Shown here one piece after another: positions 13,479-18,290 of a stretch of 64,000 bases of DNA. The stretch's first letter is position 1. Each line of letters opens with the position of its first letter. A program made the position numbers and the translations under genes. This DNA is from Candidatus Altimarinota bacterium (lineage in GTDB: Bacteria; Patescibacteriota; Gracilibacteria; BD1-5; UBA6164), in NCBI GenBank assembly GCA_028691535.1, contig JAQUZB010000001.1, positions 124,001-188,000 of the forward strand, in the 5' to 3' direction. Below the pieces are notes generated by a model. That model was not told where the DNA came from. It saw only the letters and a program-made list of their open reading frames with translations, and did no database searches.

Positions 13479-14378
13479 ATGAAAAAATCAATTTTAATAT
13501 TACTTTTATTATTGCTAAGTTTTTCTTTTGTAAATGCTTATGAACCTACAAATTCAGAAGTTAAAACATTGGATTTACTTACAAAATTGATAGAAAAACA
13601 AGCAAATTTAAAATGAGAGTTATGGATAAAAAGACAAACTTATTTATTTACAAATGCTTTAAATAGTATTAATGATGAAAGAAAGATTTACATATTAAAT
13701 TATGTATTATCAGATATGAATGATAACTTAACTAAAATCCAAGAAAAAAATGAAGAAAAATTAAAAATTGAATTAGAACAAGTAGAATTGAAAAAACAAG
13801 AAGATTTAAAAAATACAAAAGATTACAATGAAAAAGCTAAATTATTTTTTGATCTATATTGAAAAAATATAACTACAGGTTTAGAAATAAGTGAAAAATG
13901 TACTAAATACTTCGATTTTATTGATGAAATTGCAAAGAAAAACGATTTTCCAACAGAATTAGTTATAGCAACTTGGAGTAAAGAAACTAATTGTAATTTA
14001 TCAAATCCATCAAATACTTGGTGACCTTTTCAAATAACAAGTGCATATTATGTTCCTTGAGATATAACACTAGAAGATTTTTGAGTTGCAGTACAAAAAT
14101 ACATAGATTTTACAAAAGGGAAGTGGAATTATTTTAATAATAATTCTTATCATAATTATAAAACTAGATTTTGAGATGAAAACATAACTATAACTTATGA
14201 TAATTATAGTTTGAGAGATTTAAAATTATCTGCTATCTTATATAATTGAGTTAGTTCTAATACAACTCTTGATTGAAATACATTTGCAAATTCAAACCTA
14301 AATTCTAGTGTTGTTACAAATAGTGATGGAATTGTTACTAGATTTTTAAAAATTTTAAATTATAGAATTAATAAATAG
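13479..14378 (+). CDS. Secreted lytic-transglycosylase-like protein
   Basis: 299 aa with a clear signal peptide (residues 1-20, ending VNA-YE). A lysine/glutamate-rich coiled coil spans about residues 25-125. The C-terminal domain shows IATWSKETNCNL and WGPFQITSAYYV, the SLT pattern in which the Glu of SKET would be the catalytic acid and GPFQI the lysozyme-superfamily motif. Such enzymes cut the peptidoglycan glycan strand. No cell-wall-binding domain other than the coiled coil is seen. Could act in wall remodelling during growth or host contact. Confidence 0.75.
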
Positions 14379-14400: not shown

Positions 14401-14432
14401 CTTAATGTTTTCTTAATTAAGTAATATATAAT
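14401..14432 (+). promoter_or_regulatory. Response-regulator box and -10, copy 1
   Basis: CTTAA (14401-14405), 6 bp, CTTAA (14412-14416), 10 bp, TATAAT (14427-14432). The 11-bp direct-repeat pitch and replacement of the -35 box are typical of OmpR/PhoB-type activators. Confidence 0.7.
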
Positions 14433-14487
14433 AGGTATTAAGATAAAGAATCTTAATACTTTTTTATTACTTAATTCTTAATTGATA

Positions 14488-14519
14488 CTTAAATATTTCT
14501 TAATCGAGTTAAGTATACT
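14488..14519 (+). promoter_or_regulatory. Response-regulator box and -10, copy 2
   Basis: CTTAA (14488-14492), 6 bp, CTTAA (14499-14503), 10 bp, TATACT (14514-14519). Same spacing as copy 1. Confidence 0.7.
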
Positions 14520-14673
14520 TATTAAGTAATAAAAAATATTACATTTGTTTATCTTAATACTAAATTATAGTTTTAAAAATAGATATTGATTATAATAAAT
14601 GATACATTTAAAAATCAATCCTTCTAAATTTATAATTATAATGTATATTTCTTTATTTTATAATAATACTTTT

Positions 14674-15342
14674 ATGAAAAACAAAAAAATATTGGCTTGA
14701 GCTTTAATTACTACTTTAATTATTTCTTGAGTTTGATCTTCATTTGCCGCATATAACACAACTAGTTCTACAGCACAAATGAATAATAGAATGGAAAAAC
14801 CAGAAATGACTGAAGAACAAAAGTTAAAAATGGATGCCATAAAATTAATTTTAGATAAAAAAGAAGCAGGTGAAACTATTACTTCAGCTGAGCAAACATT
14901 ACTTGATGATTTTGAAGCAAATAAACCACAAATGGGAAGCTGACAAACAATTGGAAATAAACCACAAATGGGTAATAATGCTGATACATGAAATAACCTA
15001 CAAAATGGAAGTTGACAATTAAATAAATGAAATTTAGAAAATACAACTTCTAAATCAAAAATTTCAGCTAAATATAAAACATCAATTGATAAAAAAATAG
15101 AATCAATTTCTACTACTCTTGATTCTTATAGTAATGATATTAAAAAAGAAAAATTAGAATATTTCGTTTCAAAAGTAGAAGCAGCACAAACAAAATTAAA
15201 TAACTCTAGCGCTTATACTGATGCGAAGAAAGCAACTTACAACTCACTTTTTGATTATATAATCGAAAAAACTAGATCTGAAATTGATTGAGTTGATTAT
15301 GATACTGAAGAGGATGATATATTAAATGATATATTTAATTAA
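14674..15342 (+). CDS. Secreted LTxxQ/Spy-like protein, paralogue A
   Basis: 222 aa. A signal peptide (MKNKKILAGALITTLIISG...SFAA) is followed by MTEEQKLKMDAIKLILDKKE and ITSAEQTLLDDFEANK, which match paralogue B at 15545 in the same order. A Gly/Asn/Gln-rich linker (about residues 90-125) joins a C-terminal helical part. The Thr-Glu-Glu-Gln-Lys words resemble the LTxxQ repeats of Spy/CpxP, periplasmic chaperones and stress sensors. ATG 14674 is chosen because it starts the signal peptide; an in-frame ATG at 14641 is less likely. Preceded by two response-regulator boxes. Confidence 0.7.
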
Positions 15343-15347
15343 TTACT

Positions 15348-15379
15348 CTTAAATACTTCTTAAAAACTTTAGATATAAT
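15348..15379 (+). promoter_or_regulatory. Response-regulator box and -10, copy 3
   Basis: CTTAA (15348-15352), 6 bp, CTTAA (15359-15363), 10 bp, TATAAT (15374-15379). It drives paralogue B. Confidence 0.75.
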
Positions 15380-15382
15380 AAA

Positions 15383-15406
15383 GGTGTAATCAATAAAGAT
15401 TACACC
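15383..15406 (+). other. Hairpin at the 5' end of the paralogue B transcript
   Basis: Perfect 9-bp stem GGTGTAATC / GATTACACC with a 6-nt loop, beginning 4 bp after the -10 box, so at or next to the transcription start. A second small stem CAAAG / CTTTG follows. It may stabilise the mRNA; there is a 138-nt leader to the ATG. Confidence 0.6.
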
Positions 15407-15544
15407 ACGACACAAAGTTACCTTTGCAAGCTTAAATATATTCTTTTATTATTAAATGTAAAGTTTATATAACTAAATAATGATACTAAAGATATTTTAG
15501 CAACTTGTAAAAAGTAATTATTTTAATTTTTTAATTACATATTT

Positions 15545-16123
15545 ATGAAAAGAAATGTAAAAATACTTGCTTGAGCTTTAATTACTGCTATGACTGCAGC
15601 TTCAATTTGAGTTTCATTTGCAGATAGTTCTTCAACTTGAACACTAAATTTAAATAAAAAAGTTGAAAGACAAGCATTAACAACAGAACAAAAAGCTGAA
15701 ATGGATGCTATGAAATTAATTATGGAAAAAAAGAGAGCATGAGAGACTTTGACTACAGATGAACAAGCTAAACTTGATGCTTTTGAAGCAACAAAACCAA
15801 ACTTTTGATCAATGTGAGAATGAATGAAAAGAGGAGAATGAATGAAATCATGAGAAAGAGGTGAAAGAGGAGAAAAATGAGGTTTTATGAATAATTTAAC
15901 TACTGAAGAAAAAACTGCTTTACAATCTATGACTACTGAAGAAAAAAAGGCATTTTTTGAAGCTAAAAAAGCTGAACAAATTGCAAAAAGAGATGCAAGA
16001 GAAGGTGTAATTGATAAATTGCTTGCTTGACAAACTCTAACTGCGGACGAAGAAGTTGTAAGAGCTGAAATAATTAAAGAAAGAGCTGATAGAAAAGCTG
16101 AAATGTTGAATGATAATAAATAA
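15545..16123 (+). CDS. Secreted LTxxQ/Spy-like protein, paralogue B
   Basis: 192 aa. A signal peptide (MKRNVKILAGALITAMTAAS...SFAD) is followed by ALTTEQKAEMDAMKLIMEKK and LTTDEQAKLDAFEATKP, then a Gly/Glu/Arg-rich stretch (GEGMKRGEGMKSGERGERG) and further LTTEEK and LTADEE words. Four LTxxxE/Q repeats in one small secreted helical protein recall Spy/CpxP. It is a paralogue of the gene just upstream and precedes the two-component genes, which is the arrangement expected for an envelope-stress chaperone and its sensor. The Gly-rich part uses many TGA codons. Confidence 0.7.
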
Positions 16124-16164
16124 TATACAAAATAATAAGGCTATAAAATTGTATATTAAACATG

Positions 16165-16251
16165 ATAAGTAATAATAAATATAATAATAATAAACATAAT
16201 TAAATAACAAATTTCATAATAAAATAATAAGTAATAATAAATATAATAATA
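16165..16251 (+). repeat. 25-bp direct repeat, two copies
   Basis: The 25-bp word starting ATAAGTAATAATAAATATAA occurs at 16165-16189 and again at 16227-16251, 62 bp apart, in the gap between paralogue B and its terminator. Meaning unknown; simple AT slippage is possible. Confidence 0.6.
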
Positions 16252-16287
16252 TAAACTTCATAAATAAGACGAAAAATCTTATTTTCT

Positions 16288-16320
16288 AAGAAAAAACTCA
16301 CCTTTGGTGAGTTTTTTCTT
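16288..16320 (+). terminator. Terminator after paralogue B
   Basis: Perfect 15-bp stem AAGAAAAAACTCACC / GGTGAGTTTTTTCTT with a 3-nt loop. Its right arm overlaps the first CTTAA of box copy 4. Confidence 0.9.
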
Positions 16321-16349
16321 AATTAGCTCTTAATCTTTATTTATATAAT
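16318..16349 (+). promoter_or_regulatory. Response-regulator box and -10, copy 4
   Basis: CTTAA (16318-16322), 6 bp, CTTAA (16329-16333), 10 bp, TATAAT (16344-16349), upstream of the response regulator gene. It implies autoregulation. Confidence 0.75.
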
Positions 16350-16389: not shown

Positions 16390-17052
16390 ATGAGAGTATT
16401 AGTAATAGAGGACAATGAAATTTTATCTAGAAATTTAGTTAGATATTTTTCTGCTAGAGATATATTTACAGAAGCTGCTCTTGATTGAAAAGAGTGACTA
16501 TATAAAGCTTCTACTAAGTTTTATGATGTGATAATTCTAGATTTAAATCTGCCTTCTATGAATTGAATAGATATTTGTAAATCTCTTAGAGAAAAAGAAA
16601 AAGATGTTTCAATAATTATGCTTACATCAAAATGAACAAATGAAGATATAGTTACTTGACTTGATACTTGAGCTGATGATTATCTAGTTAAACCTTTTGA
16701 ATATAGTGAGCTACTTGCAAGAATGAATGCAATAGTTAGAAGAAAAAATATGAATAAAAGTAATACAATGATTACTATTTGAGATATAGAATTAAATCTA
16801 CAACAAATTGAAGTAAAAAAAGACGGAGAAATAATTTCGCTATCAAAATTAGAATATGATTTATTTAAATATTTGGCACAAAATAAGTGAGTAGCACTTT
16901 CTAGAAATGATATATATGAAAAAGTTTGGGGAGAATATGATTGAGATTTTATGTTTAGTAAAACAATTGATGTGTATATTTGATATCTTAGAAAAAAACT
17001 TTGAAAAGATTTAATAGAAACGAAAAAATGATTTTGATTTTTAATTAAATAA
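16390..17052 (+). CDS. OmpR/PhoB-family response regulator
   Basis: 220 aa. Receiver domain with acidic residues in VLVIEDNE, phospho-acceptor Asp in VIILDLNLPSMNG (about residue 52), Thr in IIMLTSKG and Lys in DDYLVKPFEYSEL. The C-terminal winged helix shows ISLSKLEYDLFKYLAQNKG and DVYIGYLRKKLG, as in OmpR/PhoB proteins, which bind 11-bp-spaced direct repeats. Exactly such repeats precede this gene and the two secreted paralogues. Stop codon is 2 nt before the kinase ATG. Confidence 0.92.
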
Positions 17053-17054
17053 AT

Positions 17055-18290
17055 ATGTCTTTAAATATAAATAAAACTAAGAGTAAATTAGCTATTGTTT
17101 TTGCAACAATAGTTTTTGTGGTGGTTTTTTTATTATGATTAATTTTTTTCTCAACTAAATATTACAATGCAATAAGTACTGAAAAAACAGATTTTAGTTA
17201 TTTTATAAATCTAATTGAATCAAAAAAAATAACAATTGAAAATATGTTAAATTTTTGACCAAAATTTGATAGTTTTAACAATATTAATAAGATAATTAAA
17301 TTTGATATAAAAAATCCAGATCTTTGACCTAGAGAATTTATGAATTATGTATTATTTGATGGTTCATGAAGTCTAGTTTCTAGCAATGTTAAAGACAATG
17401 TAACAGAAGATTTTATTTTAAATATTATAAACAATAAATCTTTTTACAATATAAAACAGGATTCATGATTCTTGGTTAATAAAACGGATTTTAATGATGA
17501 TTGATTACTTATAGTTTTTAAAAAACTTAGATATTGATTTTATGAATATTTAGAAGATATATTTACATTTACAATTATATCGTTGCTTTTTTCTATACTT
17601 ATTTACTATATTTGAATTATTTTTGTAAATAAGGTTTTTGTTCCTGTTGAGGAAAATATAAAAGATATGAGTAATTTTATAGACAATGCCTGACATGAGT
17701 TAAAAACTCCAATCTCTGTAATTGATTCAAATATTCAGTTAATAAATGAGTTAAAAACTTATGATGAAACTATGATGTTAGAGTTAAAAGGTGAAGTTAA
17801 AAAACTTAATTCTTTGATTGATTCTTTGGTTAAATTAAGCAATATAGATGTATTTAGAGATGTAGAAGATATAAATCTATATGATGCAGTAAATGAAATA
17901 ATAAATGATTTTAAATCAAAGATTGATAATAAAAAAATAACTGTAAATATTAAAATAAATAAAAAAATCACAGTTAGTTCAAATAAAAATTATTTATATA
18001 TATTTTTATCAAACATAATTTGAAATTCAATAAAATACAACAAAATTATGTGAATAGTAGATATAAATTATAAAAATAATACATTAATCATAAAAGATAC
18101 TTGAGTTTGAATAAAAAAATCAGATTTATCAAAAATCTGGGATAGATTTTTTAAATCTGATAATTCAAGAAACTCAGAATGATTTGGTATTTGACTTTCT
18201 CTTGTAAAGAAAATCTGAGATATTTATTGATGGAATATGAGTGTTAATAGTAAAGTTTGAGAGGGTAGTGAATTTAGTATAAAATTTTAG
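17055..18290 (+). CDS. Membrane sensor histidine kinase
   Basis: 411 aa. Two hydrophobic segments (residues ~13-35 and ~172-195) flank an extracytoplasmic sensor region of about 135 residues with no recognised fold. The H-box is NAGHELKTPISVIDS near residue 218, then the N-box IIGNSIKYNK, D-box IIKDTGVGI, F-box and G-box FGIGLSLVKKIG. It would phosphorylate the regulator encoded 2 nt upstream. By analogy with CpxA, the sensor domain may respond to the secreted LTxxQ-like proteins; that part is inference. Confidence 0.92.

Follow-up and report, generated by a model that had tools for sequence, protein, structure and literature searches.

In enterobacteria, the CpxRA/CpxP system pairs an autoregulated regulator-kinase operon with a neighbouring small, exported helical protein that has LTxEE-like motifs. 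The promoters of CiaR in streptococci carry TTTAAG-N5-TTTAAG with the -10 element ten bases further on; in the consensus an invariant G closes each half-site, and the recognition helix of CiaR is VVEVYVSKVRKKL (PMC3091779). The CiaR regulon of Streptococcus is covered by a further source (PMC8317062). The SaeR repeat of Staphylococcus aureus is GTTAAN6GTTAA, which often occurs in more than one copy (PMC5083920). In the open-access literature we found no two-component regulon described for Candidatus Gracilibacteria, the name borne by close relatives in a search with the regulator protein studied here. The only regulon of Patescibacteria that we found cited there is a DNA-damage network, given as a reference in PMC7739468.

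Here we describe repeated promoter boxes at a two-component locus of this lineage. The boxes very probably mark genes turned on by the adjacent signalling pair, because they recur in relatives before the same genes.

Results

Four promoter boxes in the window

The window is the whole stretch of DNA analysed, 64 kb at C17:124001-188000 of a 1.26-Mb genome in 20 contigs (G000). As the sequence-only reading had claimed, the pattern CTTAA-N6-CTTAA-N10-TATAMT occurs in four exact copies on the + strand, at 14401, 14488, 15348 and 16318, and positions, spacings and genes were all confirmed. The -10 element is TATACT in the box at 14488 and TATAAT in the other three. A fifth exact copy was sought within the 64 kb and none was found, in agreement with that reading. 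It overlooked a further CTTAA at 14477, placed 11 bp ahead of the 14488 box, which gives this promoter three half-sites in register. The promoters are as follows.

14401..14432, + strand: P1, CTTAA-N6-CTTAA with -10 TATAAT, upstream promoter of gene A (exact match)
14477..14519, + strand: P2, CTTAA at 14477, 14488 and 14499 (11-bp pitch) with TATACT, proximal promoter of gene A
15348..15379, + strand: P3, box and -10 of gene B (exact match; orthologous promoters in G005, G001, G003 and G009)
16318..16349, + strand: P4, box and -10 of the response regulator-kinase operon (exact match; autoregulation predicted)

The genes of the window were translated with code 25, in which UGA stands for glycine. 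With this code the proposed assignment of two boxes to gene A, one to gene B and one to the response regulator was borne out.

14674..15342, + strand: gene A, exported paralogue (code 25), with two boxes upstream
15545..16123, + strand: gene B, exported paralogue (code 25), with one box upstream
16390..17052, + strand: response regulator of the OmpR/PhoB family (Response_reg PF00072, 6.3e-28; Trans_reg_C PF00486, 1.9e-18)
17055..18290, + strand: cognate sensor histidine kinase (HisKA, 3e-6; HATPase_c, 2e-17)

Both domain scores of the regulator were above the cut-off, and the regulator-kinase order of the operon is kept in relatives. The tandem promoter layout of gene A was also found in G005. 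The products of A and B are 35% identical in alignment. A Pfam search of both gave no family above its cut-off, and the LTXXQ (CpxP/Spy) profile gave no Pfam match up to an E value of 1. The structure model of the gene B product is helical and of low confidence (mean pLDDT 65); Foldseek returned no match for it at E 0.001 or better, and VIA-align gave no Z above 4.7, with no CpxP/Spy chain among the rows compared.

A helical module, GETLTxDEQAKLDEF, is C-terminal in the G026 and G009 proteins and near the N-terminus in the window's genus; the loci compared with gene B for its position were L122:1626-2183 and 2359-2901. The position of the module points to module shuffling in the A/B-type exported family. 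Upstream of gene A, positions 13479-14378 encode an exported protein that belongs to no known family; a relative of it adjoins the same cluster in G003 (L120:1135-2031).

Intergenic DNA at the locus is about 85% A+T, which would favour a chance match to the box. Nevertheless, the pattern appeared in none of 100 dinucleotide shuffles of the window (expectation 0.00), and 20,000 shuffles of the three intergenic regions alone gave a mean of 0.0003 and a maximum of 1, in keeping with the original estimate that chance agreement is very unlikely. Genome searches were pattern searches with reversed-pattern controls. Random matches across the genome were checked for and not found: there were five exact copies against none for the reversed pattern, the fifth lying outside the window at G000:C20:132859. 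When up to two mismatches were allowed, 42 matches were obtained against 34 for the reversed control, so these matches are mostly chance. The relaxed box was therefore unusable for a genome-wide search, and only exact or conserved sites were used after this result. Among 2.9 million viral contigs, 44 scattered exact matches were taken as background.

Conservation of the box in relatives

A search of 60 genomes, the window's own included, gave about 37 exact sites against 2 for the reversed controls; many are at orthologous genes, and all but one are within the window's own family. The spacing was mapped on a grid of N2-10 by N7-13 over 35 relatives. Within the window's own family, 27 of 48 matches fell in the single cell N6/N10, and the remaining 62 cells averaged 0.34 matches. 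Conservation at orthologous genes refutes a chance match, against which the shuffles, the reversed controls and the spacing peak also speak and to which we give a negligible probability.

Twelve regulator orthologues were at least 70% identical. In eleven of them a direct-repeat box lies at a distance of 61-74 bp ahead of the regulator ATG, with CTTAA twice in seven and CTTAC as the second half-site in four (G002, G003, G005 and G022); the half-site varies between CTTAA and CTTAC even between close orthologues. The twelfth, in G027, has no box right upstream, because the regulator directly follows a MacAB-like operon, joined to it, that carries the box at its head.

In the regulator promoters of G009, G026 and G034, a perfect TATAAT lies only 4 bp after the box, 6 bp closer than elsewhere, and the N10 position reads TAAAAT or TAATAT. 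Since TATAAT sits closer to the box there, the start point or the sign of regulation could differ. This arrangement, like the overlap of the box with the -35 region, would suit a regulator that represses, with bound dimers blocking the -35 region until a signal relieves the block. We consider repression unlikely. P1-P4 show no alternative -35 hexamer 17 bp from the -10 and for this reason look weak without an activator, and the fixed 15-bp distance resembles that of activated CiaR promoters (PMC3091779).

Genes behind the boxes

The box precedes orthologues of the secreted paralogues in several genomes. In G005, G009 and G001 the cluster starts with a box, an exported protein of about 105 aa, a membrane-fusion protein, an ABC ATPase and a MacB-like permease, and continues with a box, the secreted paralogue, another box, the regulator and the kinase. 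The efflux operon of the window's genome is on another contig (C14), where the box is kept with one mismatch. A box at the membrane-fusion-protein/efflux operon was found in G000 (the one-mismatch site), G001, G004, G005, G009, G013 and G027; the G002 operon is outside this count, as its contig ends too near. The efflux operon keeps its box in both of its chromosomal settings, which argues strongly for a functional box. The membrane-fusion protein scored 149.7 bits against TIGR01730 (RND/MacA periplasmic adaptor; cut-off 94.9) and did not reach the cut-off of the MacA equivalog NF008606. The best match of the permease was MacB. The regulon proposed by the sequence-only reading was supported in substance, but it is larger than the four promoters and includes this MacAB-like operon.

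Exact boxes in relatives also precede genes for HtrA-like proteases, a ferric-reductase-like membrane protein, thioredoxin and peroxiredoxin. Exact boxes at L044, L046, L036, L034 and L047, several of them CTTAAG, occur in relatives with or without the regulator; the genes behind them encode an HtrA-like protease, a thioredoxin-like lipoprotein with a peroxiredoxin, a MoxR-like ATPase and a ferric-reductase-like protein. Several of these boxes (HtrA, peroxiredoxin and others, often CTTAAG) sit in genomes that lack a close regulator orthologue, so they may belong to a paralogous, possibly envelope-stress, regulator. The C20 site, at lipoprotein-DUF4153, was found in G000 only. Being absent upstream of the orthologues, even the 74%-identical one of G005, it counts as no more than a possible species-specific target.

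Half-sites and recognition helices

Differences in the repeat run parallel to differences in the recognition helix. Helix SKTIDVYIGYLRKKL goes with CTTAA, or with one CTTAC at four promoters, SKTVDVYIGYLRKKL with CTTAC repeats, SRTVDVHISTLRKKL with TTTACA repeats and SSVTLEAHIS with TTAAAC repeats; the parallel series of helices is SKTIDVYIGY, SKTVDVYIGY, SRTVDVHIST and SSVTLEAHIS. The more distant regulators thus differ in recognition helix and in their repeats, which keep the 11-bp pitch: CTTAC types belong to regulators 52-61% identical and TTTACA types to sister-family regulators about 47% identical. At L083, of the sister family, a TTTTTACATGC unit is repeated five times head to tail, in 11-bp copies, upstream of the regulator. 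A second two-component system, with the box TTAAAC-N5-TTAAAC, was observed at G000:C10:102305 and its orthologues (L197, L205, L206 and L220), and a box-like site in G000 also precedes the exported DUF2202 protein neighbouring that system (L016).

The genome encodes at least seven OmpR-like regulators, so that cross-recognition among them is possible and it is difficult to say to which paralogue a box belongs. They could be operators of another OmpR-type regulator elsewhere in the genome, with the adjacent regulator merely one target. We regard this as quite unlikely, as several of the paralogues examined have a repeat of their own, such as TTAAAC-N5-TTAAAC before C10:102305 or the CTTACA types in relatives. 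Moreover, the box is a constant feature of the operon that encodes the regulator itself, and its abundance tracks the closest regulator orthologue: 27 sites lie in the 12 genomes with an orthologue at least 70% identical, against 9 in 24 others.

The constant distance of the repeat to the -10 might also be explained if the repeat were the -35 element of an alternative sigma factor and no activator site. However, the -10 is the housekeeping TATAAT, the half-site is repeated at 11-bp pitch in up to three to five copies at some promoters, and half-sites change in step with the recognition helices of the regulators, which together make a sigma factor very improbable.

Hairpins around the promoters

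Two hairpins border P3 and P4.

15383..15406, + strand: hairpin where the gene B leader is predicted to start (fold; position conserved in relatives)
16291..16317, + strand: intrinsic-terminator-like hairpin with T6, ending directly where the regulator's box (P4) begins

Hairpins lie at the predicted transcript start after each A/B promoter (14434-14460, 14526-14542 and 15383-15406), their position being conserved in relatives and their stem sequence variable. The gene B leader has an additional conserved hairpin, CAAAG-TTAC-CTTTG. Consensus folding of this leader in six sequences supported only two short hairpins. A hairpin similar to the terminator-like one stands just ahead of the box at seven other regulator loci. 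The lone Rfam match in the region, STnc370, fell on the terminator below threshold (E 0.84) and was rejected.

Discussion

What we saw directly are the sequences of the boxes, how they are spaced, how far orthologous genes conserve them, and the parallel change of repeat and recognition helix. We consider it highly likely, on comparative grounds, that the adjacent OmpR/PhoB-family regulator uses the box as its operator; it would activate its own operon, genes A and B and the MacA/MacB-like efflux operon.

In the proposed mechanism, phosphorylated regulator dimers would line up head to tail on two CTTAA half-sites (at times three to five), all on the same side of the helix and between about -38 and -23. 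There appears to be no -35 hexamer where the half-sites lie, and TATAAT is taken as the -10; the bound half-sites would replace the missing -35 and recruit RNA polymerase to TATAAT. The genes turned on in this way would be those of the regulator and the kinase, those of the exported helical paralogues A and B, and the efflux operon, which is on C14 in this genome and beside the regulator in relatives. The match to the promoter layout of CiaR and to the repeat geometry of SaeR suggests an activator site for tandem dimers. We infer binding, activation rather than repression, and control by phosphorylation from the sequences.

Given the efflux operon and the exported proteins, the physiological role most likely lies in coping with envelope stress or an antimicrobial peptide, and A and B are most likely extracytoplasmic adaptor or feedback proteins. 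A broader reading, which we offer only tentatively and think rather doubtful as a whole, is that paralogous OmpR-type regulators have diverged into a helix-to-half-site code on a fixed 11-bp frame (CTTAA, CTTAC, TTTACA and TTAAAC), and that the CTTAA member controls a regulon for envelope defence, where A and B, with their hairpin-led leaders, feed back on the kinase and work with the MacAB-like pump. If this were true, A and B would form a family of exported helical repeat proteins that has not been described before.

Mechanisms of this kind are known; what is new, as far as the open-access literature shows, is the regulon, the half-site and the lineage. The locus gives an experimentally testable two-component regulon, with operator, regulator and targets, in a lineage that is uncultured and uses an altered genetic code. 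For the study of DNA recognition by the OmpR family, it is useful that half-site and recognition helix differ in parallel while the geometry stays constant.

Comparison with known systems

The likeness to CpxRA/CpxP is an analogy only, that of a regulator-kinase operon beside an exported small helical protein; no LTXXQ/CpxP family match was found for A or B, nor a fold match with the low-confidence model of B, and the operator is different. The efflux operon resembles MacAB-type operons in its membrane-fusion protein, which passes TIGR01730, and its permease, which is nearest MacB. It differs from them in that the ATPase and the permease are separate genes, no MacA or MacB equivalog cut-off is reached, and the operon is preceded by the exported protein of about 105 aa, which is of no known family.

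With CiaR the locus shares an OmpR-family regulator, a TTAA core, an 11-bp pitch in the -35 region, a fixed distance from the repeat to TATAAT and autoregulation, which is predicted here; both recognition helices have a tyrosine at the corresponding position (VVEVYVSKVRKKL in CiaR, TIDVYIGYLRKKL here). However, the flanking letter is a 5' C here and a 3' G in CiaR, TTAA lies one base closer to the -10 here, and the core targets comprise efflux proteins and exported helical ones. Boxes at HtrA genes were found only in G008 and G035, relatives without a close regulator orthologue. The half-sites do not support the view that the regulator is a CiaR orthologue: CTTAA is followed mostly by T or A, with G in only 7 of 36 second half-sites.

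SaeR differs in the first base of its half-site, which is G and not C, and belongs to another phylum with other target genes. The geometry of its repeat (5 + 6 + 5) is nevertheless identical to that of the box described here. Both have a TTAA core, several half-sites at some promoters, mostly exported proteins as targets and autoinduction, the last of these being predicted at this locus.
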